From: Lachnospiraceae bacterium | GTDB lineage: Bacteria > Bacillota > Clostridia > Lachnospirales > Lachnospiraceae | Assembly (NCBI GenBank): GCA_024698555.1 | Contig: JAILRI010000102.1 | Coordinates: 1-35,497, forward strand | Direction of reading: 5' to 3' | Length of the DNA stretch: 35,497 nucleotides | Part shown: positions 65-32,389 of the stretch, piece by piece | Layout of the letters: every line of letters begins with the position of its first letter | How positions within the stretch are numbered: position 1 is the stretch's first letter | Notes under the pieces: model-generated | Seen by the model: only the letters and a program-made list of their open reading frames with translations | The model's database searches: none | What the model was told of the DNA's origin: nothing | Program-made: the position numbers and the translations under genes

Positions 65-985
65 ATGATAGAAATACTTAATGGTATCGTTGAAACCGTT
101 GCCTACAACGGTATGAACGGAGTCAGAATACACCACAACAGGGAGGCTGATGATTATCCGATTCACTGGCATACCGCCATGGAGATCATCATGCCCTTTG
201 AAAACACATATGAAGTGACTATCGGAAGCAGCACACTGATAGTAGAACCCGGTGATATCATTATCATCCCGCCCGGAGAGCTTCATATCCTCAAAGCTCC
301 CGATACCGGCTCCAGGCTGATCACGATGGTGGACTACTCCCTGCTGTGCAACTTAAAAAGCATGGATCAGCTGCTTCATACGCTCCATCCGTACTGTCTC
401 ATAAAAAGCAGGAACGGTGACGATCTGGCCGACGAGCTTTCCGCAACGCTAAAGGAACTGCTCCTTGAAATAGAGTCCGAATATTTCAGCGGCACCCCCT
501 TCCGCGAAGCGCGTATATATTCCCTGCTCATCAGCTTTTTCGTTACCATAGGCCGCGAAGCCGGAAACCTCGGGGCTCGTTTCGGCAATTTTACCACAAA
601 CAAGCAGCACGAATATGTAGAAAAATTCATGAACGTCTGCGGATACATCAACGAACACTGCACCGAGGATATCACCGTCGAGGAGCTTGCCGCCCTCGCA
701 GGTTTTTCTAAATTTCATTTTGCCCGGCTGTTCAAGCAGTTTACCAATTCGTCATACTATGAGTATCTGACTCACAAGCGTATAGAACACGCCGAAGCCA
801 TGCTCATTACGCCTGATATCTCCATTACCGAAGTAGCCATGCAGTCCGGTTTCAACTCTCTTTCGACATTCAACCGTGTTTTCAAGAGTGTCAAAGGCTG
901 TACTCCTTCGGAATACAAGGGGCTCAACCGCCAGTACATCAGAGAAACGTCCGATTATGAAGACGGCAGCAGAACCCCCGCGTGA
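65..985 (+). CDS. AraC-family transcriptional regulator (cupin + HTH)
   Basis: A 306-residue DNA-binding regulator with the standard AraC layout. The N-terminal half (about residues 15-95) is a cupin-like sensor, with histidines in the HWHTAMEI stretch and a PGDIIIIPPGELH strand-turn pattern. The C-terminal part (about 200-290) holds the two helix-turn-helix motifs, visible as VEELAALAGFSKFHFARLFK and the ITEVAMQSGF...FNRVFK consensus. The start ATG is preceded by AGGGGA. The gene converges on the family 2 glycoside hydrolase, and its TGA directly abuts that gene's stop codon. AraC regulators beside glycosidases usually respond to a sugar and control the neighbouring gene, so control of the hydrolase is likely but inferred. 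The ligand cannot be read from the sequence. Confidence 0.9.
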   Translation: MIEILNGIVETVAYNGMNGVRIHHNREADDYPIHWHTAMEIIMPFENTYEVTIGSSTLIVEPGDIIIIPPGELHILKAPDTGSRLITMVDYSLLCNLKSMDQLLHTLHPYCLIKSRNGDDLADELSATLKELLLEIESEYFSGTPFREARIYSLLISFFVTIGREAGNLGARFGNFTTNKQHEYVEKFMNVCGYINEHCTEDITVEELAALAGFSKFHFARLFKQFTNSSYYEYLTHKRIEHAEAMLITPDISITEVAMQSGFNSLSTFNRVFKSVKGCTPSEYKGLNRQYIRETSDYEDGSRTPA

Positions 986-21594: not shown

Positions 21595-22853
21595 CAGATC
21601 TTCAACACCTGCTCCCAAATTTGATATCCTGAACTCCGGATCTCACCGAAACCCAGATCCCTGACTGTGATCACGCAAACATCCCTTTTGGGAAACTTAA
21701 GCTCTATCTCCAGCCGGGTCGTCCTGTCCTGTCTTACAGACAGGGTATCAAGCGTCATGATCGCGCATATGAAATCTTTTTTCAGCGCGTTGTGAACAAT
21801 GAAATCAAGCTCATTGGTCTTATCCATGATCACTTCTACTTTTGAGTATGCTCCTTCATACGGTTCCCCGCAGCCCGCCAGCTTTATCTCGTCATAGCCT
21901 CCGTCCTTGTAGACTCTCAACATGATATCGCTGGAAAGTTCTTCCGAATCTATAAAGCGGTATTCTTCCCTGCCGCCGTCAAATGCCAGTTTCGCGGCGT
22001 ATCCCGCTCCTTTCACATACAGGTTCTGACCCCGGAATATCCTGCGCCCGCTGCAGAACTTCTTCAGACTTTCATCAGCCCATGCGCTTTCAAACCCGCA
22101 GCCTGTAAAATACAGGGCAGATATCATCTGCTTCTGAAGCATCATCGCCGCGACATTTTCAAACGCATATATCAGTCTGTCCATCTCCCCGGACGAAAGC
22201 ATATCGAAGCTGATCTCATCGGAAAGGTCGGTACGTTCGACCAATACCGTCAGAGGCCTGGTCTTGCGTCCGAAGCTCAGCTTGTAAAAAACAAATCCGT
22301 CCAGATCAAAATCAAACAGCCCGACGTCATTGATCCATATATCACAGTTCTGCTCGACCACATAATACATAAAGCTTTCCGTATGCCTTATGATCCTTAT
22401 CCTGTCGGCAGGCAGACCGAGAAGCGTAAACGCGGCGTACAGATTCTTCCTCAGGGCATCATTGCATTCCTTCATGGTCAGCACCACACCCCTGATCCTT
22501 TCTGCTCCGGCCTTTTGCCTGACACTAGCGAGCATCCTCCTGAAATATCTTTCCAGCAGAATATCCGCAGGATAATTTCTTCCAAATATCTCCATGCTGC
22601 TGTCATTTGAAGCAAGCTCCACTATATTGTCTATCCTGACAACGGTCTCTCCAGGCGAAGTAAGCGCCGCTTCCTCTCCAAACAGCCAGTCCGACGATCC
22701 CGCTACAGCGCAGAGCATAGTCGGTATCCGGTATTTTAACGGATCCTTTGAAAGGCTGACCGACACATAGCTCCCGCCTGCACTGTAATAGCAGATCTGG
22801 GAGTAATCATTGGCCAGGTCTATCCCAACCAGGACACTCCGTTCATCTTCCAT
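21594..22853 (-). CDS. Hsp70/actin-fold (ASKHA) ATPase-like protein, DUF5716-like
   Basis: A 419-residue protein. The N terminus VGIDLANDYSQICYY is a phosphate-1 motif of the actin/Hsp70/sugar-kinase superfamily. RGVVLTMKECNDALRKNL resembles the Hsp70 segment leading to the catalytic core, and LYFTGCGFESAW matches the adenosine motif position. The phosphate-2 region (IWINDVGLFDFDL) lacks the usual DxGGGT glycines, so nucleotide turnover may be weak or lost. The C-terminal 110 residues (about 305-415) form a beta-rich domain, possibly analogous to a substrate-binding module. From memory it resembles DUF5716 proteins of Lachnospiraceae. It lies 21 bases after the giant first gene and is translationally coupled to the TPR gene. 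Confidence 0.7.
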   Translation of the reverse strand: MEDERSVLVGIDLANDYSQICYYSAGGSYVSVSLSKDPLKYRIPTMLCAVAGSSDWLFGEEAALTSPGETVVRIDNIVELASNDSSMEIFGRNYPADILLERYFRRMLASVRQKAGAERIRGVVLTMKECNDALRKNLYAAFTLLGLPADRIRIIRHTESFMYYVVEQNCDIWINDVGLFDFDLDGFVFYKLSFGRKTRPLTVLVERTDLSDEISFDMLSSGEMDRLIYAFENVAAMMLQKQMISALYFTGCGFESAWADESLKKFCSGRRIFRGQNLYVKGAGYAAKLAFDGGREEYRFIDSEELSSDIMLRVYKDGGYDEIKLAGCGEPYEGAYSKVEVIMDKTNELDFIVHNALKKDFICAIMTLDTLSVRQDRTTRLEIELKFPKRDVCVITVRDLGFGEIRSSGYQIWEQVLKI

Positions 22854-22874
22854 GCGCCGCGCCTCCTTTCCTTA

Positions 22875-25800
22875 CTAAACGATCGCTTTAAAAAGCTGTT
22901 CCGCTATATTGTCATTCTTTATATATCCTTCCAGAAGCCCGAGCATAGTCTTGGCATCGCCCATTTCCCGTGCCGTTATGATCAGGTTCAGCTGGTGGTA
23001 GCCGGTCTCTTCGCTTCCGAGTTCGTCGGGATCGACGCTTATCTCTCCGCTTTCAGTAATAGCGTAGTTATCTTTAGATTCTTCGCTTATGTAATACTGA
23101 AGCGTTTCCCCGCAGAACAGGATGAATTCCTTAACAAATATCCCGTAACCGACATCTTTCATGAGTTCATCCTCATACTTGCCGTTTCCGTCATCATTTA
23201 CACAATAATGTATCTTGACCAGCAAGCTCGGATCTGTATGATACTCAACATAATGTTTGTCGAAAATGCCCTGCGGCAGCTCACATACTCCGGCAAAATC
23301 CCTGAAAAACGGGAGGATCTTTCCTGCCGAGGCAAACTCCTCCAGCTTCCTTTCCACGAACATCTTATCCTGCTCGGTCAGCGTCTGTGCATGCGAATAG
23401 CTCTTGAGCAGAGCCAGCGAACATATCTCGTTGTCATCATACAGTGATTCGTGCCGCATGATATCCAGCATCTCGCCTTCGGTCATCTGGTCGAAGGTCA
23501 GGCATCTGTACGCGTAGTACGATAAATATGCCCTTATCAGCCTTCTGTTGGTACCATGTCCGTAATAATGTTTAAACACGGCATTGGCAAAGCTCATATC
23601 ATTTTGTGTAAACAGTATCTGATACAACAGCCTCTCTTCCAGATAAGCCGTATCCACGTTAGTATCGAGAGCCTGCCGCCAGAGCTTGTACATATATTCA
23701 GAAGGTCCGTCATATTTATCTGCCACATGCTGGGCAATACCGGGTCCGGAATATCTGTGGAATAAAACATACGTACATATGACCGTGAACAGCGGAGTCT
23801 GAATAACTTCATCCTTCGCATCTATCAGCTTGGATGCCAGTTCGGATAAGCGTTTGATATCCACGCCCATAAAACCGTACATCTGCATATTGCGCATGGC
23901 CAAACTGTATAATTCACGCTGTATCATCAATGAGAGCATTCTGGCGCGATCCGTTCTGTTGAACCTGGAAAGATCGAGACTTACCAGAAGCTTTTCCATC
24001 CTGTCGCCTTCCAGATTCTCGTAATAGTATTCTATCAGTTCACGTTTGCAGTCCAGTTCGAACTTTTTCTCCAGATCAGGCAGATATACTATCCTCTTGA
24101 TCAGATCCACGACCATCTGGCCGTCGGCTCTGTACCTTGCCGCCTCCAGAGAATACAGATTGACTCTGGCGTCGTCACTGCAGCGTTCCAGACATACTTT
24201 TAAGAGCTTCTGGTCGGTTATGATCCGCTCCGGATCACCATCTGACCATACCACACGGTTGCCTGCCTGATCCGCGGCAAGGATCACGGCATCATTGGTA
24301 AAGATGTCACAGTACGCGACACCGTCTTTTATCTCAAACGATTCTTCTTTAGATAATTCCTTATGTGATACTATTATTTTAACGGCACCTTCCCATTCCA
24401 CAACTACTTTGTGTTTGAAAACTATACCGGGAAGGGCGCAAATGACGGCGTCATCCAGTTCGTCCGCGTCAAGCAGCGTATTGTATAAAAACGCAAGATC
24501 ATCATCTATTTCACCGCTTAACAGACAGTTTTTCACGAATTCCGAAGCACCGGCCCGAAATGCTTCTCCGGCATGCTCGCGGCTCGTGCGAAATCTGTAT
24601 ATATTTGCATAGAATGAAGCTTTTAAGTGCTCCGGAAGCTGTGCTCCCGATTCAAAATAGGACACCAGTTCCTTGGGCAGCGGTGTCTCAAAGGCGCTTC
24701 CGGCCTGAGAAATACATTTTTCACATATCCCTTTTGGAACAATGCCGTCTCTGATACCGGCTATCAGCCATTGATAAGCCCTCTCACCTTTAATGTCAGC
24801 CAGCATGATGTGCCGGCATAACGCTTCTAAAACTTCCACTGTCCTGAATTGCGCAACTGCCATCTCCAGAACCCTTACATGCAGCAGGGAGCTGTTTTTG
24901 GTATGCATGGCCAGATAAGCGGCGAACCGTATGGCATCCTTGTTGATCAGATCATTTTTCAGACCGTACATAAGTACATGAAGGTCAAATCCGTCATATT
25001 CCTTCATGACGGTAGGTTCCTCATTGACCAGACGGCAGACGCTTGAAAGAACAAAGGGCGAATAACTGCCTGTTACGGAATTTTTGAGCATCCCGTAGCG
25101 GGCCTGCCTTCCCATGCGCATTTTCTCGTCAGCTTCGATGCGCAGCAGTGCAATAATGGCATCCTGGGTACGATCGTAAAGGCCTGTGAGCTGTTCCACC
25201 GTTTGGGCCGGAACCGATACATCCCTTAAGTTCCTCTTTTCCTCGCCCACACCCAGTAATGCAGACATATACAGCTCCAGAGCATATTCCCGCTCGCTGA
25301 AATTCTCTTCTTCCTCACTTAAGAGCTGTAATTCCACCTCAGCCTGGCTCGTTCTTCCCGACAGATACAAAATATAACACTTAAGGAACTGTTCTTTGAA
25401 GCCGATCTGTTTCATATCCCTCAGGTCGTTCAGGAGCTTTTCTTCTTCGTGAATGAAACGGTTCTTGCTGATCCGTCCCATCCGGTAATCCAAAGCCGTC
25501 GTTTCAAGCTTCATTTCCAGATATCGTCTGCGGCGCCTTGAAAGCCTTTCCTTCATGGATTGGGAGCTTCTCTTAAGAACTACCGGAACCATTATCCTCA
25601 CATTTATACCGGTGATCAGAACAGCTGAGTAGCTGGTTCCGCCGTGAGTTTTTGAGACATCCGCTTTCAGTTTCAGCCGGAACTCATTGCCGGAAAAATC
25701 ATCCGACCAGATGATCTTCCGCTCGGGAACGATAAAATCGCTCATGGTCTCTACAGCCAGCTGCAGATATCCCCATGTGTCGCGGGTAAGCACGATCTCG

Positions 25801-26462
25801 CCCTCGTAATTCCCACAGGCAGTCCCATCATCCGATGCACTATCCCACGGGATCTCAAAATTAATGGTCTGAGTCTCACAGCTGACCTTAACCGGCTTTT
25901 TTTTGTGAGCGCTGACCAGAAAATCCTCCAGCGCCAGAGAAACATTGCCCGATTTGAGCAGAGCCGTGCTCAAGGTATCAAATTCGGAGTTATAATATGT
26001 AAGAGTGTTACGGAATTCTTCTGACTTGAACAGATCTCTGGCTTCCGTCCAGTTGCTCTGAGCCAGTGAAGTAAAATGAAACAGATCCGACGCCGGCCCT
26101 ATAGAGGTATGGCAAGCCGGCACCCGGCATTTTGCCTGAAAAGGTATGTCCATTTCACCGTACTCGCTGATAACGGTAAAGCTTCCCTGAACAGTATCGT
26201 TTATATCCAGATAGGTTGCGTCGAAACGGTATCTGATCTCATTTTCTATTCCGTAGAAAGTATTTTTCTCAAATGAAATGAGGCTGTCTGAAGCCACTAC
26301 AAAACCTTTAAAAGGAAGTGTTCCGGTCGAAGACACAACAAAAGAACCCTCCATCGACTTACCTGCTTCCGCCGGGATATTTATACTTGCTATTGAGGTA
26401 AGAAGCTGAGGATTGCTGTAGGAAAAAATGCCTTTCGCGAACCTTTCGATCTTTTCCCGCAT
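22875..26462 (-). CDS. Giant repeat protein, DUF5717-like, unknown function
   Basis: A 1195-residue protein without signal peptide or membrane segments. The first about 120 residues and about 205-310 look like two immunoglobulin-like beta domains (strand patterns SMEGSFVVSS, QGSFTVISEYGEMDIPF, EIVLTRDTWGYLQLAVE). From about 315 to 1000 the chain is almost entirely helical and TPR/HEAT-like. The C-terminal about 200 residues return to mixed beta structure (VKIHYCVNDDGNGKYEDELMKDVGYGIFVKEFILF). The N terminus matches what I remember of DUF5717, a family of unknown function in Lachnospiraceae. AGGGGGC precedes the ATG. It is the first gene of a four-gene operon with its own promoter. A large cytoplasmic scaffold that works with the Hsp70-like protein is plausible but unproven. 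Confidence 0.75.
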   Translation of the reverse strand: MREKIERFAKGIFSYSNPQLLTSIASINIPAEAGKSMEGSFVVSSTGTLPFKGFVVASDSLISFEKNTFYGIENEIRYRFDATYLDINDTVQGSFTVISEYGEMDIPFQAKCRVPACHTSIGPASDLFHFTSLAQSNWTEARDLFKSEEFRNTLTYYNSEFDTLSTALLKSGNVSLALEDFLVSAHKKKPVKVSCETQTINFEIPWDSASDDGTACGNYEGEIVLTRDTWGYLQLAVETMSDFIVPERKIIWSDDFSGNEFRLKLKADVSKTHGGTSYSAVLITGINVRIMVPVVLKRSSQSMKERLSRRRRRYLEMKLETTALDYRMGRISKNRFIHEEEKLLNDLRDMKQIGFKEQFLKCYILYLSGRTSQAEVELQLLSEEEENFSEREYALELYMSALLGVGEEKRNLRDVSVPAQTVEQLTGLYDRTQDAIIALLRIEADEKMRMGRQARYGMLKNSVTGSYSPFVLSSVCRLVNEEPTVMKEYDGFDLHVLMYGLKNDLINKDAIRFAAYLAMHTKNSSLLHVRVLEMAVAQFRTVEVLEALCRHIMLADIKGERAYQWLIAGIRDGIVPKGICEKCISQAGSAFETPLPKELVSYFESGAQLPEHLKASFYANIYRFRTSREHAGEAFRAGASEFVKNCLLSGEIDDDLAFLYNTLLDADELDDAVICALPGIVFKHKVVVEWEGAVKIIVSHKELSKEESFEIKDGVAYCDIFTNDAVILAADQAGNRVVWSDGDPERIITDQKLLKVCLERCSDDARVNLYSLEAARYRADGQMVVDLIKRIVYLPDLEKKFELDCKRELIEYYYENLEGDRMEKLLVSLDLSRFNRTDRARMLSLMIQRELYSLAMRNMQMYGFMGVDIKRLSELASKLIDAKDEVIQTPLFTVICTYVLFHRYSGPGIAQHVADKYDGPSEYMYKLWRQALDTNVDTAYLEERLLYQILFTQNDMSFANAVFKHYYGHGTNRRLIRAYLSYYAYRCLTFDQMTEGEMLDIMRHESLYDDNEICSLALLKSYSHAQTLTEQDKMFVERKLEEFASAGKILPFFRDFAGVCELPQGIFDKHYVEYHTDPSLLVKIHYCVNDDGNGKYEDELMKDVGYGIFVKEFILFCGETLQYYISEESKDNYAITESGEISVDPDELGSEETGYHQLNLIITAREMGDAKTMLGLLEGYIKNDNIAEQLFKAIV

Positions 26463-26509
26463 GTATGCCCCCTTGTGTCCGGTCTGTTTCTTTGATTACA
26501 ATCACAGAC

Positions 26510-26538
26510 AGTATAACATTTTTCTTAAATAAAGGCAA
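26510..26538 (-). promoter_or_regulatory. Promoter of the four-gene operon
   Basis: On the minus strand, TTGCCT (26533-26538) and an extended -10, TGTTATACT (TATACT at 26510-26515), are 17 bases apart. The expected start lies about 40 bases before the first ATG. The leader holds a GTCTGT/ACAGAC inverted repeat (26482-26509 region). Confidence 0.6.
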
Positions 26539-26663
26539 GAAGTCTTAAATTTTCAATTACAATTCTTATTGTTCTGAAAATACACGGAATTTGAATTCAA
26601 CAAAGCATTGGCTACACAATATGTGATGTTATAATTTTTTTACACTTTTTATGAAAAAAGTGC

Positions 26664-26692
26664 TTGACAAATTTATTTTCCTGTGCGATAAT
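26664..26692 (+). promoter_or_regulatory. Strong promoter of the small-RNA candidate
   Basis: A perfect TTGACA (26664-26669) with GATAAT (26687-26692) after 17 bases, on the strand opposite to both flanking gene groups. There is no open reading frame with a ribosome binding site behind it. Instead a terminator follows about 90-130 bases downstream. Confidence 0.75.
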
Positions 26693-26698
26693 CATCTC

Positions 26699-26826
26699 AG
26701 ATAAACAAACCTCATATTTGTTTTACTTGAGTTACTCGTTACTACCCCTCAAATTATGCGGGTAACTCATCCTCCCTTACATCAGAGCGTAGATTCCCCC
26801 AAAGTCTGCGCTCGTTTTCTTTTTTA
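26699..26826 (+). ncRNA. Candidate C-rich trans-acting small RNA (about 127 nt)
   Basis: The unit runs from a strong promoter to a strong intrinsic terminator and codes for nothing visible. Predicted structure: hairpin 1, AAACAAA (26703-26709) with TTTGTTT (26717-26723), loop CCTCAT; hairpin 2, TGAGTTAC (26728-26735) with GTAACTCA (26762-26769), enclosing CCCCTC (26745-26750); an unpaired linker with CCTCCC (26771-26776); then the terminator stem with loop CCCCC (26796-26800). Four CU-rich segments in loops or linkers are the hallmark of Firmicute small RNAs that pair with GGAGG ribosome binding sites (for example the RsaE type and streptococcal csRNAs). Assignment to a known Rfam family could not be tested. 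The targets are unknown. Confidence 0.6.
26785..26826 (+). terminator. Intrinsic terminator of the small-RNA candidate
   Basis: GAGCGTAGATT (26785-26795) pairs with AGTCTGCGCTC (26803-26813): 11 pairs including two G-U. GTTTTCTTTTTT follows immediately. Confidence 0.85.
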
Positions 26827-26845
26827 TCTCTTATATATTATCGTA

Positions 26846-26953
26846 ATCGAGCAGGCTGACTCCTACTCGATCCGACGGGCCATCTCGAAAGCAGAGCTTT
26901 CTCGATGACCGTTCACTCAGCCCTCAGTCTGCAAGCAAGCTTGCACTGAGGGC
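26846..26953. repeat. Three consecutive hairpins in the rplT-sRNA intergenic region
   Basis: Hairpin A: ATCGAG (26846-26851) with CTCGAT (26866-26871), plus AGG/CCT inside. Hairpin B: CATC..GAAAGC (26881-26892) with GCTTTC..GATG (26896-26907), extended outward by ACGG/CCGT (26875-26878, 26909-26912). Hairpin C: GCCCTCAG..TGCAAG (26920-26935) with CTTGCACTGAGGGC (26940-26953), 14 pairs with a two-base bulge and a CAAG loop. None has a U-tract. They lie between the small-RNA terminator and the rplT terminator. They could be a structured RNA, a processed 3' UTR, or palindromic repeat units of the REP kind. No coding sequence is evident. Confidence 0.6.
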
Positions 26954-26971
26954 ATTCGCTTATCGCACAAG

Positions 26972-27007
26972 AAAAGGGGCTGCCGCACTTCCTGGTGCGA
27001 CGGCCCC
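26972..27007 (-). terminator. Intrinsic terminator of the infC-rpmI-rplT operon
   Basis: On the minus strand a 13-pair stem (26976-26988 with 26995-27007, one mismatch and one G-U, core GGGGC...GCCCC) is followed by TTTTCTT. It lies just downstream of the rplT stop. Confidence 0.85.
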
Positions 27008-27021
27008 CATATTTTATATTC

Positions 27022-27378
27022 TTATGCCAGTTTTGCCTTAGCTGCGTCAACCAGACTCTTGAAGCCATCGGGATCCGAAATAGCGATCTCGGAAAGCATC
27101 TTACGGTTGATATCGATATCAGCAAGCTTTAAGCCATACATGAATCTGCTGTAGCTTAAGTCGTTCATCCTGCATGCAGCATTGATACGGGCGATCCACA
27201 GACGGCGGAAATCTCTCTTCTTCTGCTTGCGTCCGGCAAACGCTGATGCAAGTGCTCTCATAACCGCCTGTTTTGCAGTCCTGTACTGCTTCGAACGTGC
27301 GCCTCTGTAACCCTTAGCGAGTTTTAAAATTCTGTTATGCTTTTTCTTGGCGTTTAAGCCGCCTTTAATTCTTGCCAT
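27022..27378 (-). CDS. rplT: 50S ribosomal protein L20
   Basis: A 118-residue basic protein that binds 23S rRNA and is needed early in large-subunit assembly. The characteristic start [29 protein letters not shown] and the central [20 protein letters not shown] segment are both intact, and the length is standard. In Firmicutes L20 also represses its own operon by binding the infC leader mRNA, and a matching leader is present at 28146-28314. It follows rpmI by 27 bases and is the last gene before the operon terminator. Confidence 0.99.
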
Positions 27379-27405
27379 GTCTTAATTCCTCCTATAACGC
27401 CAAAT

Positions 27406-27603
27406 TTAAGCATACGGAAGCATCCTGCGAGTCTGCTTCTCAAGTGCTGAATCAACTGTAGAGGGCTTTCTGAGCCTTCTCTTCATCTTGGAATCCTTCT
27501 TGGTCAGGATGTGGGCCTTTCCACATTTGAACCTTTTGAACTTACCGGTGCCGGTCTTCTTAAAACGTTTAGCAGCGGCCCTGTTTGTCTTCAACTTCGG
27601 CAT
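27406..27603 (-). CDS. rpmI: 50S ribosomal protein L35
   Basis: A 65-residue, very basic large-subunit protein of normal length. It begins [21 protein letters not shown] and contains the conserved [18 protein letters not shown] stretch. It is located between infC and rplT, the conserved bacterial order. GGAGGA precedes the ATG. Confidence 0.99.
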
Positions 27604-27638
27604 AATTCTTTCCTCCTGAATTATTTAAATAATATCAC

Positions 27639-28145
27639 TTACTTCTTTAAAGTCAGGAACATGATCATGTTCCTGCCCTCAAGCTTCGCGGCCTTATCCA
27701 CAACGGCTACATCTTCAAGCATAGCGGCAAACTGATCCAGGATCTCCTTGCCGTTAGCCATATGTGCCATCTCGCGGCCTCTGAACTTGAGCGAAGCCTT
27801 CACCTTATCTCCGTGCTGGAGAAACTTTCGCGCCTGATTTGCTTTGGTGTTCAAATCATTGTCATCAATATTGGGTGACAGACGAATCTCCTTGATTTCG
27901 GTAATCTTCTGTTTCTTTCTCGCTTCCTTTTCACGGCGAGTCTGCTCGTAGCGGAACTTGCCGTAGTCTGCGATCTTGCAGACCGGTGGCGTAGCAGTGG
28001 GCGCTATCTTGATCAGATCAAGCTCCGCCTCCTTAGCCATCATATAAGCGTCCTTCGAGGACATGATACCAAGCTGTTCACCGTTAGCTCCGATAACGCG
28101 AACTTCCCTGTCCCTGATTTGTTCATTAAGTAAATAGTCGCTAAT
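27639..28145 (-). CDS. infC: Translation initiation factor IF-3 (ATT start)
   Basis: A 168-residue factor that binds the 30S subunit, prevents premature 50S joining and checks the start codon. The standard first methionine in frame, at 28064, would remove the conserved N terminus. Reading upstream, the frame continues through the family motif LNEQIRDREVRVIGANGEQLGIM. The only well-placed start is an ATT at 28143-28145, 8 bases after a perfect AGGAGGT (28154-28160). No ATG, GTG or TTG exists in frame between. E. coli infC also starts with AUU, through which IF-3 represses its own synthesis by rejecting the unusual codon. The same autoregulation is likely here (inference from the family). The C-terminal domain includes KVKASLKFRGREMAH. 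Confidence 0.95.
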   Translation of the reverse strand: MSDYLLNEQIRDREVRVIGANGEQLGIMSSKDAYMMAKEAELDLIKIAPTATPPVCKIADYGKFRYEQTRREKEARKKQKITEIKEIRLSPNIDDNDLNTKANQARKFLQHGDKVKASLKFRGREMAHMANGKEILDQFAAMLEDVAVVDKAAKLEGRNMIMFLTLKK

Positions 28146-28314
28146 AGTTTTGCACCTCCTGCTAAAAAATAAAAAAAGGTGGACAGCAAATTATCCACCT
28201 TAAAATCTTAAACACATCTGTAAAAAATGTAAAAACCGATTTCAAAACCCTGCCGCTAAAGTCGCTCGGGGTGAGAGTGGATACTCTGCTTAATGTGCGG
28301 TCTGTGCCACAACT
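28146..28314 (-). promoter_or_regulatory. infC operon leader (L20-leader-type attenuator)
   Basis: The 5' UTR is about 170 bases. It ends in an intrinsic terminator placed directly before the infC ribosome binding site. Leader segment UAUCCACU (28276-28283) can pair with AGUGGAUA-type bases of the terminator's 5' arm (28192-28199, 8 pairs with one G-U), forming an antiterminator that excludes the terminator. This is the layout of the Firmicutes L20 leader, where L20 binding shifts the balance to termination. Whether the L20-binding mimic of 23S rRNA is present was not established. Confidence 0.7.
28162..28200 (-). terminator. Attenuator terminator in the infC leader
   Basis: On the minus strand AGGTGGA (complement of 28194-28200) pairs with TCCACCT (complement of 28177-28183) around a 10-base loop. 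A U-tract of about 14 bases broken by one A follows. It ends immediately before the infC AGGAGGT. Confidence 0.85.
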
Positions 28315-28320
28315 TTGGGT

Positions 28321-28350
28321 ATAATATCACAGATCGCACACAGTTGTCAA
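28321..28350 (-). promoter_or_regulatory. Promoter of the infC-rpmI-rplT operon
   Basis: On the minus strand a perfect TTGACA (28345-28350) is followed after 18 bases by TATTAT (28321-28326). This is a strong housekeeping promoter that places the transcript start near 28314. Confidence 0.8.
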
Positions 28351-28440
28351 GTATTTTTTTATCTTTCATTGATCCGCCTTTTCAAGGAATCACTGATTAA
28401 GTGTTCTCCTCGCGAAACCTGCAGTCACAAAGTGCCATTC

Positions 28441-30219
28441 CTATGCTCTCTGCAGCTCATAAAGCTTCTTGTATATACCGTTTGCAGCCAGCAGTTCCTG
28501 ATGCGTTCCTCTTTCAACCAGTCTTCCTTTATGCATGACCATGATGCAGTCGGCGTGCTGAATGGTTGACAGCCTGTGGGCCACCATGATCGTTGTCCTG
28601 CCACTCATAAGTCTTTCCAGCGCCTCGGTGATCAGGCTTTCAGTCTCGGTATCGATATTGGCGGTCGCTTCATCCATGACCAGGATCTTGGGGTCATACG
28701 CAAGCGTCCGCGCAAAGCTTAACAGCTGTCTTTCACCGGCGCTTAAAGTACTTCCGCGCTCACTTACCGGCTCATCATATTTATGCTCCAGTTTTTCGAT
28801 AAATCTGTCAGCATTTGCGGTGTGAGCCGCCCTCACTATATCATCATCGCTTATGTTTTCATTGCCCAACCTGATATTACCCGCAATATCTCCGGTGAAA
28901 ATGAACACATCCTGCTGCACCTGGCCGATAGCCCTTCTCAATACATCAGTATCCATTTCACGGATATCCGTACCGTCTATCAGGATCCTTCCCTTAGATA
29001 TCTCATAATATCTGCCCACCAGGCTGAGGATAGTCGTTTTCCCCGCGCCGGTCGCTCCGACGAACGCAACCTTCTCGCCGGGTTCTATCACAAAGCTCAC
29101 ATCCTTCAGTATCCAGTCCTCGCCGTTGTAGGCAAACCAGACGTGGTCGAATTCTATCCTTCCCAGGATGTTAGATACACTTGTTCCTTCTTCCGCAGCT
29201 TTGCTGTTGTTTACGATCGCAGGTTTCTCATCAAGCACCGAAAAGATCTTCTCCGCAGACGCGAAGGCCTGCTGCAGCGTCCCTATCTGTTCAGCCAGAT
29301 CCTGTATGGGTTCAAAGAACGAACTGACATACTGTATAAAAATATAAAGGACACCAACCGTAATACCGCTGCCCGCCAAAGCATTCTCGGCAAATACCAG
29401 TCCCGAACCGCCCCAGATGATATTGATCAGGGCTATTATCGACAGCAGATATATACAGGGGCGGAATACCGCATACACCATGATCTCCCTGAAATACGCC
29501 TTAAACAGATCTTCACTTCTCTCACGGAACTCAAGGTTTTTCTCATACTCGCGGTTGAATATCCTGATAAGCTTCATACCTGAAATATGCTCGCTGAGGT
29601 ATGTATTGATAGCGGTAAGCTTTGCTCTGGTTATCCTGTAGCAGGTCCTCGATATCCGCTTGAACAGAAATGTCAGTACCACTATCACGGGCACAAGCGC
29701 AAACGCTCTCAGTGCCAGCCTTGCATTTAACAGCAGCATCACCACGGATAATCCTATGATCTTCACCGCGTTTTTGAGGAGCCTTACCAGTATACCGGAA
29801 AACATATCCGAAAGAGCTTCAACATCATTGGTTACCCTCGTGACCAGCTTGCCTACCGGAGTTACATCAAAGAACCCCAGATGCAGCCCTTCTATATGAG
29901 CGAACAATTCATTTCTTACATTATATATTATAGACTGTCCGGTTTTTCCCAGAAGCCACATCTGTCCAACATACAGGGCAAACATGCATACGAGCGCGGC
30001 CAGATAAGTCAGTCCCAGCTTCTTCACAGCGTCAAAATCAGTGCCGTACGCAAAGCTGTCTATGGCATTACCAAGCAAAGTAGGCGCATACAGCTCCAGG
30101 ACCGTAGTTCCCAGCATCATGATGCTGGCCAGTACCATCTGCCCCGCAAAAGGCTTTGCGTAATGCATCAGTCTTGTGAATACGCTTTGTTCGTTTCCTT
30201 CAATCTTATTATGATCCAT
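28441..30219 (-). CDS. ABC exporter half-transporter, catalytically intact subunit
   Basis: A 592-residue protein with an N-terminal six-helix exporter domain (about 20-330) and an ATPase domain (about 355-590). Walker A is GATGAGKT (388-395), the signature is LSAGE (492-496), and Walker B is ILVMDE with the catalytic glutamate E517. The LSAGERQLL signature and the intact glutamate are typical of the active half of heterodimeric multidrug-type exporters (LmrD/BmrD class). The partner is the upstream 619-residue gene on the same strand, 310 bases away. Substrates could be drugs, lipids or peptides; none can be named from sequence. AGGGGA precedes the ATG. Confidence 0.92.
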   Translation of the reverse strand: MDHNKIEGNEQSVFTRLMHYAKPFAGQMVLASIMMLGTTVLELYAPTLLGNAIDSFAYGTDFDAVKKLGLTYLAALVCMFALYVGQMWLLGKTGQSIIYNVRNELFAHIEGLHLGFFDVTPVGKLVTRVTNDVEALSDMFSGILVRLLKNAVKIIGLSVVMLLLNARLALRAFALVPVIVVLTFLFKRISRTCYRITRAKLTAINTYLSEHISGMKLIRIFNREYEKNLEFRERSEDLFKAYFREIMVYAVFRPCIYLLSIIALINIIWGGSGLVFAENALAGSGITVGVLYIFIQYVSSFFEPIQDLAEQIGTLQQAFASAEKIFSVLDEKPAIVNNSKAAEEGTSVSNILGRIEFDHVWFAYNGEDWILKDVSFVIEPGEKVAFVGATGAGKTTILSLVGRYYEISKGRILIDGTDIREMDTDVLRRAIGQVQQDVFIFTGDIAGNIRLGNENISDDDIVRAAHTANADRFIEKLEHKYDEPVSERGSTLSAGERQLLSFARTLAYDPKILVMDEATANIDTETESLITEALERLMSGRTTIMVAHRLSTIQHADCIMVMHKGRLVERGTHQELLAANGIYKKLYELQRA

Positions 30220-30529
30220 ATTTTATCCCCTGAACTAAAGAACCCGATCCGTCGCAAATCCGTAAACGCCGTCAAAACGCTTATTATAGCGAAAGACATA
30301 TTTGTTTTATCACGGGTAATAATTAAACCCTGATTAAATATGCAAATTGAACTAAATATCTGTCCTGCTATACGCAAATACACTCGTGCAGTTTAAGAAA
30401 ATAAATTGTCAAATAATTTCGAGCGATTACGTGTTTTTTCTTATTTCTACTTTTGTCGACTCAGTGTTTTCTATATGTGTCGATTCCTGATAAAGACCTT
30501 ATTCCGGTAACACATGTATTATTGATCGA
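30220..30529. other. 310-base gap between the two exporter genes
   Basis: No open reading frame with a ribosome binding site was seen on either strand. A perfect -10 (TATAAT, minus strand, 30283-30288) with a poor TGATAA 18 bases upstream could give the 592-residue subunit its own promoter, about 57 bases before its ATG. The -10 lies inside a short palindrome (CGCT/AGCG). The rest is AT-rich with no clear terminator. A gap of this size is unusual between subunits expected in equal amounts. Confidence 0.4.
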
Positions 30530-32389
30530 TCATTCTGCCATCTCTTCCAGCATCTTCTCAAGCTGCTGCTTCTCATACAATCTTGCATAGATACCGTCCT
30601 TCGACATCAGTTCTTCGTGATTTCCGAGTTCCGCTACTTTTCCGTCTTCTATGACCATGATCAGATCGGCATGCTGTATGGTCGAAATACGGTGGGCTAT
30701 GATTATCGTGGTTTTTCCTTTCCGCACTCTCTTCAGGTTATCAAGTATCTGTTCTTCGGTATCGGTGTCAACCGCTGACAAGGCATCGTCAAGGATCAGT
30801 ATCGGCGCGTTCTTCATCAGCGCTCTGGCTATGGATGTCCTCTGCTTCTGGCCTCCGGACATGGTCACGCCGCGCTCTCCGACTATAGTGGCGTATTTTC
30901 TGGGGAATTCCATGATATTATCATGTACACAGGCGTTCTTTGCCGCGTCTGAGACAGCTTCGATGTCCCCGTAGGTTTCATCCACCAGGTCAGCCCTGCG
31001 GTTTAAATTATCATCAAGCAGTTCCATTATCGCGGTCTCGCCGCTTCTTAAGTTTCTGATGGAGAATTTTTCCTTGGGAAGCTCTATCCATTTTCGAACG
31101 CCAAAGGCAATGTTTGCCTGAACAGTGTCAGAAAACAGGAAATTGTCCTGCGGAACATACGCAATAGAGGTTCTGAGGACATCTAAGGGTATTTCACGTA
31201 TATCATGTCCGTCAAAGCTTATAGTGCCTTCCTCTGCCTCATAAAGCCTTACCAGCAGATTGGCTATCGTGGTCTTCCCGCACCCGGTCTTGCCTATGAT
31301 CGCCAGTGTCTGTCCCCTGTTGACATGTACTGAAATGTTTTTCAATACATCACCGTATTCCTTTACGTATGAAAAGCTCAGGTCTTTCAGCTCTATCTCA
31401 CCGTTCAGGGTATCTATACCGCTGTATTTTCCGGTATCAGTTATCTCGGGCTGCTGAAGCATTATCTTCATTACCCTCTTATACGCGGCTCGACCCTGTG
31501 AAAAGGCATTTATACTGTCGCCTGCCGCGATCATCGGCCATACCAGCATTCCGATATACTGGTTAAACGCTACAAACTGAGCCAGGCTTATCTCACCTTT
31601 AAGGAACTGCCATCCCCCGTAAATGATGGTTATAGATCTGCAGATACCTATTATCAGTTCTATGCCGGGTCCGAACAGCATGTTGAGCTTTATGACCCTC
31701 ATAGCCATCTTCCGGTTATTCTCATTGGCTTTTTCAAATTCCCTTTTCTCATGCTCTTCCCTGACAAAAGCCTTTATGACACGTATTCCGGAAAAGCTTT
31801 CCTGGGCTTTATCACTTAACAGGGAAAACGCCTCATTCTTATCCTTATAATGCTTTTCCGCGACGCCGCAGTAATACAGTGCTCCGCACATTATCACCAG
31901 CATAGGCAGGCTTGCTATTACCGTGATCTTTACATTGATGTACGTGACCATCTTCACAATGACCAGAACAGTCATCACAACGGCATCAAATGAAGATATT
32001 ACCGCAGGCCCAATCGCGATGCGCATCGAGGCTATGTCATTGGTAAAATGAGCCATCAGATCGCCTGTTTTATGTGTGTTATAAAACTCCTGGGACATCC
32101 CGGTCAGATGTTCAAACATCTCATCCCGCATAGCCCTTTCTATCCTTCTGGCGGATCCGAAAAGGAACCAGCGCCATCCGAACCTTCCTACAGCCATGCC
32201 CAGTCCGCACAGTAATATCGCCAGACAGCATCTTCCCACATCTTCACGGGTAAATCCGCTTCCGGACAGCCCATCGGTAACCTCGCCGGTAAACTGCGGA
32301 ATATACACGCTGATCAGATCGACCGCAAACAATATCAGTATACCGCATATATACTGCACTCTGTATTTCTTGATATATTTCCAAAGCAT
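30530..32389 (-). CDS. ABC exporter half-transporter, degenerate-site subunit
   Basis: A 619-residue membrane transporter subunit. The transmembrane domain spans about 10-305 and the ATPase domain about 330-600. Walker A is GKTGCGKT (366-373) and the signature is MSGGQKQR (510-517). Walker B is ILILDD, where aspartate D535 replaces the catalytic glutamate. That change marks the degenerate half of heterodimeric exporters of the LmrC/BmrC class. An unusual insertion of about 45 residues (about 431-476) lies between the Q-loop region and the signature, where related proteins have a short link. It pairs with the 592-residue subunit downstream. No regulator gene is adjacent. The RBS is GAGGT, 9-10 bases before the ATG. 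Confidence 0.92.
   Translation of the reverse strand: MLWKYIKKYRVQYICGILILFAVDLISVYIPQFTGEVTDGLSGSGFTREDVGRCCLAILLCGLGMAVGRFGWRWFLFGSARRIERAMRDEMFEHLTGMSQEFYNTHKTGDLMAHFTNDIASMRIAIGPAVISSFDAVVMTVLVIVKMVTYINVKITVIASLPMLVIMCGALYYCGVAEKHYKDKNEAFSLLSDKAQESFSGIRVIKAFVREEHEKREFEKANENNRKMAMRVIKLNMLFGPGIELIIGICRSITIIYGGWQFLKGEISLAQFVAFNQYIGMLVWPMIAAGDSINAFSQGRAAYKRVMKIMLQQPEITDTGKYSGIDTLNGEIELKDLSFSYVKEYGDVLKNISVHVNRGQTLAIIGKTGCGKTTIANLLVRLYEAEEGTISFDGHDIREIPLDVLRTSIAYVPQDNFLFSDTVQANIAFGVRKWIELPKEKFSIRNLRSGETAIMELLDDNLNRRADLVDETYGDIEAVSDAAKNACVHDNIMEFPRKYATIVGERGVTMSGGQKQRTSIARALMKNAPILILDDALSAVDTDTEEQILDNLKRVRKGKTTIIIAHRISTIQHADLIMVIEDGKVAELGNHEELMSKDGIYARLYEKQQLEKMLEEMAE

Follow-up and report, generated by a model that had tools for sequence, protein, structure and literature searches.

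A predicted free-standing small RNA gene with conserved C-rich segments, a probable masker of Shine-Dalgarno sites, in a genus of uncultured Lachnospiraceae

The window, a stretch of 35,497 nucleotides of Lachnospiraceae DNA, carries between rplT and a DUF5717 gene a predicted free-standing small RNA (sRNA) gene with conserved C-rich single-stranded segments, an assignment that is well supported by sequence and conservation. The RNA probably acts as an Hfq-independent antisense sRNA, which masks Shine-Dalgarno (SD) sites in trans via redundant C-rich segments. In the mechanism that we propose, its own near-consensus promoter and terminator would produce an sRNA of ~127 nt, both the transcription and its strength being judged from the sequence. 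The RNA is predicted to display three redundant C-rich unpaired segments, situated in the hairpin 2 loop, in the linker and in the loop of the terminator, an arrangement that is partly backed by two-sided changes in the stem. Most likely, these segments would pair in trans with G-rich SD regions, and the pairing would block ribosome binding without Hfq. The features of the locus, in window coordinates, are as follows.

26635..26663, plus strand: A/T-rich stretch directly 5' of the -35 box, putatively UP-element-like
26664..26692, plus strand: promoter TTGACA-17-GATAAT of sigma-70/sigma-A type with TG before the -10 box, from the sequence scan
26699..26826, plus strand: predicted sRNA, ~127 nt, with its start placed ~7 bases past the -10 box and its end at the U tract
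26703..26723, plus strand: predicted hairpin 1 with CCUC in its loop (26710-26716), in the folds of L001-L003 only
26728..26769, plus strand: hairpin 2 with loop CCCCUC (26745-26750); loop kept in 12 of 12 homologues, stem replaced yet paired between clades
26770..26784, plus strand: single-stranded linker with CUCCCUUACAU at 26772-26782, anti-SD-like, identical in 12 of 12 homologues
26785..26826, plus strand: intrinsic terminator with 11-pair stem, loop CCCCCAA (26796-26802) and U tract, from scan and fold
27022..27378, minus strand: neighbouring rplT, ribosomal protein L20 (Pfam PF00453)
22875..26462, minus strand: neighbouring DUF5717 gene (Pfam PF18984 and PF18983)

The original prediction described a near-perfect promoter and a strong terminator, and both descriptions are borne out. 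The -35 box TTGACA (26664-26669) and the -10 box GATAAT (26687-26692) are separated by a 17-base spacer and match the consensus at 11 of 12 positions; the promoter is one of the two best among 19 promoter-like sites listed for 22000-31000, by a criterion loose enough that shuffles of this region yield 12.5 sites. The terminator stem (26785-26813, 11 pairs, followed by the U tract) has the most stem pairs among the 10 sites that a scan of 22000-31000 returned, compared with 7.1 sites expected in shuffles. On the plus strand of 26664-26826, 92 bases lie between GATAAT and the terminator stem.

BLASTN against 40 relatives and the own genome identified clear homologues, with E values of 7e-47 to 2e-9, in 11 further members of the genus; two of them align at full length and nine across the 3' part. 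With the own genome included, the gene is present in 12 of 24 genus genomes. The homologues comprise clade A (L001-L003), clade B (L004-L009) and clade C (L010-L012). The promoter is found in all 12, with TTGACA, a spacer of 17 or 18 bases and a -10 box at most two departures from TATAAT, the weakest being GACAAT in L003, and an A/T-rich upstream stretch similar to 26635..26663 is present in L001-L003. A covariance model constructed from the 12 sequences scores 91-118 bits in these 12 of the 24 genus genomes; since the model was built from those sequences, these hits mainly show the absence of further strong ones. In a sample of 299 genomes of the family, strong matches were obtained only in the sample's two members of the genus. 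A search for the exact pattern in 84,980 species genomes yielded 11 contigs, whose titles all read Lachnospiraceae or uncultured Clostridia. The host genus is apparently one of uncultured Lachnospiraceae of the ruminant gut, because three of the titles point to ruminants (goat omasum, water buffalo reticulum and rumen).

Weak model matches were observed in seven other family genomes (23.9-30.8 bits, strict filters) and, within the genus, in G012, G016, G020 and G021 (19.8-24.5 bits). On reading the flanks by eye, these are interpreted as unrelated stretches or as the terminators of different genes; the least certain of the rejected ones is the G012 match (L058), in which a loosely similar CTCTTATATCAG precedes the stem. 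Two exact 17-mer matches in viral contigs lie in sequence without the rest of the RNA and are taken as chance. We also note a partial second match of 37 bits on contig C117 of G000 (L057:1501-1543, minus strand), which comprises the linker and a terminator-like hairpin with a CCCC loop, and is flanked by a pilin-like gene and by a PIN-domain gene preceded by a small ORF. With neither hairpin 2 nor the U tract, it is perhaps a decayed or shortened paralogue.

The ~127 bases had been predicted to be without coding capacity, and they do appear to be non-coding. The single ATG frame in the window RNA is open past the terminator and has no counterpart in the nine RNAs of clades B and C; the clade A RNAs (L001-L003) contain one or two ATG frames each, short or open and not all alike. 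Because the nine RNAs of clades B and C hold no ATG at all, a coding function of the RNA was rejected.

The fold of 26698-26826 has a predicted energy of -34.0 kcal/mol, compared with -14.8 (sd 3.0) for shuffles (z -6.4), and none of 200 shuffles folds as well; the fold of the opposite strand of 26664-26826 is unremarkable (z -0.35). The four C-rich segments that the original prediction placed in loops or linkers, CCUC, CCCCUC, CCUCCC and CCCCC, are indeed unpaired in the predicted fold. The number of conserved segments is nevertheless three rather than four, because hairpin 1, which carries the CCUC loop, appears only in the predicted folds of clade A and is not conserved; in L010, CCUC is unpaired near the 5' end. 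Each of CCCCUC in loop 2, CUCCCUUACAU in the linker and CCCCAA in the terminator loop is kept in 12 of 12 homologues. Thus the conservation that had been proposed as a test of the gene is observed for the promoter, the stems and three of the C-rich segments, and fails for the fourth.

Every homologue possesses a hairpin of the GAGTT...AACTC type (GACTC in L002) that carries CCCCUC in its loop. In the inner stem, six of eight pairs are changed on both sides between L005 and L010 and two of eight between L010 and L012, and one of eight pairs is broken in L012; these counts rest on a manual alignment of six of the 12 sequences without a shuffle control, because the inner stem could not be aligned between clades with MAFFT. 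In clade B, the predicted fold pairs a 5' AAGGA(AG) with the 3' tail and so closes the whole RNA (L005:1425-1564); this pairing is not predicted in clades A and C.

The stem arm GCGTAGATT and the linker CUCCCUUACAU are invariant in the 12 sequences, which is more than SD pairing needs, and the invariant UUACAU is not accounted for by SD pairing. These features would suit an RNA that acts mainly through protein binding, as a regulator's partner or a sponge; the C-rich segments, UUACAU and the terminator stem would then form its binding site, and the searches with TGTAAGGGAG, ATGTAAGGGAG and AAGGGAGGAT described below found no target of extended complementarity. Such a role is unlikely, however: a search that covered Hfq yielded no candidate protein, and three separated C-rich segments in such positions represent the layout of an mRNA-pairing sRNA (PMC4132741).

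The sRNA gene was predicted to lie on the strand opposite to both neighbours, which is correct for the window, where rplT and the DUF5717 gene are on the minus strand, but not as a general rule. The RNA opposes the DUF5717 gene in clade A and shares its strand in clade C; it lies on the DUF5717 gene's strand in L034, L037 and L042, and in L034 and L042 on that of rplT as well. In clades A and C the RNA adjoins DUF5717, and also rplT where the contig extends that far, as an element working in cis on either neighbour would do. Such a cis role is highly improbable, given that the RNA has its own promoter and terminator, that its orientation to DUF5717 is not the same in clade A as in clade C, and that in the clade B loci holding rplT (L036 and L039) it is ~3 and ~7 kb away from that gene.

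Twelve genus genomes lack a strong match. In nine of them the gap between rplT and DUF5717 is empty of the RNA, as judged by eye, and rplT is followed at short distance by the start of a DUF5717-like protein. In G020 the contig ends after a stretch resembling the approach to the clade C promoter; G014 has a different gene after rplT, and no rplT was obtained for G008. An unrooted rplT tree places the RNA-bearing genomes together with G020 in one group with a support of 0.997; it covers 17 of the 24 genomes (six with the RNA, 10 without and G020 undecided), and the six RNA-bearing genomes outside it have no rplT in the stretch examined. From the empty sites and the tree we infer that a single clade of the genus most likely gained the gene at one site, flanked by the terminator of rplT and the promoter of DUF5717. 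A gain in this clade is likelier than many losses because the family sample contains no strong match elsewhere.

Other elements are present around the locus. Between rplT and the sRNA, clade B has a glycosyl hydrolase family 10 gene (Pfam assignment for the L036 copy) and an ORF whose product shares 28-30% identity with the AraC-type regulator of the window (65-985); these genes are at L036:2134-4476 and L039:4920-7194. Downstream of rplT and on its strand, 26834-26967 (minus) gives a sub-threshold match to Clostridiales-1 RNA (RF01699; 24.5 bits, threshold 48; E 0.0018 when 301 bases are searched), which is not listed at E 0.5 in a 61-kb search. This stretch is palindrome-rich with a GCUUGC loop, and a similar GCTTGC palindrome follows rplT in L073. 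Upstream of infC and rplT, 28165-28297 (minus; L001:3002-3134) resembles the L20 leader (RF00558) below threshold (40.3 bits against 58.7), and a similar sub-threshold leader occurs in L036.

The SD sequences of this genome were described as mostly GGAGG-like, which is only partly right: in a G000 sample of 137 kb, 43 of the 101 genes have GGAGG upstream, with starts chosen partly by SD match, which favours GGAGG-like sites. All four C-rich segments pair better with the starts than with the bodies of these 101 genes (p 5e-6 to 2e-10). Against start regions, the linker scores -9.70 (shuffled mean -8.33, best -10.9), loop 2 scores -8.23 (mean -7.82, best -9.33) and the terminator loop scores -6.95 (mean -6.21, best -8.0), so that the three conserved segments are within the range of their 20 shuffles, whereas the unconserved hairpin-1 loop pairs better than all 20 of its own. 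The start preference is thus largely a matter of C content, since shuffled conserved segments pair about as well. The RNA sequence would suit SD masking, largely through its C content, and an anti-SD action of the C-rich segments is plausible, resting on resemblance to known RNAs and on pairing statistics that shuffles mostly match.

Extended complements of the linker reveal no conserved, co-varying target in the genus genomes searched. TGTAAGGGAG before ATG occurs at five sites outside the sRNA gene in the 12 RNA-bearing genomes compared with 18 in the 12 genomes without the RNA, and ATGTAAGGGAG at nine sites outside the gene in 12 genomes compared with 21 for the backward control. Followed by TG, AAGGGAGGAT is found at five, seven and three sites in G000, G016 and G004, respectively, and precedes an ORF of at least 140 codons at 5/5, 2/7 and 2/3 of them. 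In G000 all five sites lie 3-6 bases before the ORF; the genes are those of a GguA sugar ABC transporter ATPase (above the NCBIfam cut-off), a sugar-type periplasmic binding protein, a flavodoxin, an MscS channel and a DUF2225 protein. The latter counts, with GguA and the periplasmic binding protein among the five, raise the possibility that the RNA is directed at one or a few mRNAs, e.g. sugar ABC transporter genes, rather than at SD sites in general, and the target candidates of NfeR1 (ar14) are mostly ABC transport systems (PMC10746234). Such a narrow antisense role is improbable: few of the sites in G016 and G004 precede ORFs of that size; no gene is shared among the three genomes; neither G016 nor G004 has a GguA match at the cut-off used; and the agreement of GguA with the clade's own linker is mixed.

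The GguA start region carries a AAGGGAGGAT site in G000, G005, G009 and G020, and the clade C linker has itself diverged from the site. The clade's own linker pairs best with the GguA start in G000 and all four clade B genomes, and worst in two clade C genomes and G020; in G001, which is without the RNA, the pairing is as good as in clade B. GguA orthologues were rejected as a conserved, co-varying target on account of this mixed agreement and the equal fit of G001.

SD masking, the reading that we prefer, may extend to the global repression first suggested, and would proceed without Hfq: no Hfq was detected in any of the 24 genus genomes (64-100% complete) by a search that was positive in five of 14 control genomes. 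A bolder form of this reading, which is doubtful though conceivable, is that the RNA is a newly evolved, clade-specific and Hfq-free general tuner of translation, acquired in one branch of a gut genus, in which anti-SD sequences at three redundant sites would have converged on those of LhrC and the cuckoo RNAs, while UUACAU and the terminator stem would form an additional invariant module for a partner. The gene would be an sRNA family absent from Rfam, in Lachnospiraceae where no Hfq was found. Species with and without it at the same site would provide a natural experiment on the origin of an SD-masking RNA rich in C and on its action without Hfq.

In comparison with known sRNAs, the Rfam scan reached no family at gathering threshold for the window or nine loci, and no described Lachnospiraceae or clostridial RNA of similar kind is among the matches listed from the open-licence PMC literature. 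The RsaE/csRNA kind suggested at the outset is supported only in part, by the plausible anti-SD action: RsaE/RoxS gives no Rfam match for 26500-27050 up to E 5, and in our judgement the layout is nearer to LhrC than to RsaE or the csRNAs. The csRNAs of Streptococcus depend on CiaR, whose site is a TTTAAG repeat, whereas no such repeat is visible by eye upstream of the Lachnospiraceae sRNA gene. Their likeness to this RNA lies in an anti-SD sequence unpaired between two stem-loops; they are members of the CiaRH regulon, and CAU, a potential anti-AUG, is present in 53 of 61 (PMC3091779). RsaE/RoxS of Staphylococcus and Bacillus is similar in the UCCC motif that serves target binding, as cited in PMC4132741.

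The ar14/NfeR1/cuckoo RNAs of alpha-proteobacteria resemble this RNA in presenting C-rich anti-SD-like motifs in several unpaired places; theirs are CCUCCUCCC-like, and the stems are highly diverged (PMC10746234 and PMC3927594). Their hosts belong to a different phylum, and their three hairpins carry identical CCUCCUCCC, whereas the segments here vary by place and clade in sequences and folds. The ar14 model (RF02344) scores 30.7-32.9 bits in the clade B loci L033, L036, L039 and L040, below the gathering score of 58.8, and does not appear among the window's matches at E up to 5. LhrC of Listeria shares the placement of C-rich motifs in a hairpin loop, a linker and the terminator loop, and its three C-rich sites were shown to bind an mRNA just upstream of the start codon with Hfq dispensable (PMC4132741); loop 2 of L001-L003, however, reads ACCCCUC, without the exact UCCC. 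The LisRK two-component system controls LhrC. LhrC exists as five near-identical copies, in contrast to one full copy and the partial match on C117 of G000 here, and its model (RF00616) gives 21.8 and 22.1 bits in the window (E 0.72 and 0.34), below the gathering score of 110. Membership in LhrC or ar14 is denied because both gathering scores are missed, and the likeness is one of shared design. We therefore file the RNA as a putative new family among the C-rich, SD-directed sRNAs, which would add a further case of apparently convergent design beside the LhrC, csRNA and ar14 RNAs.
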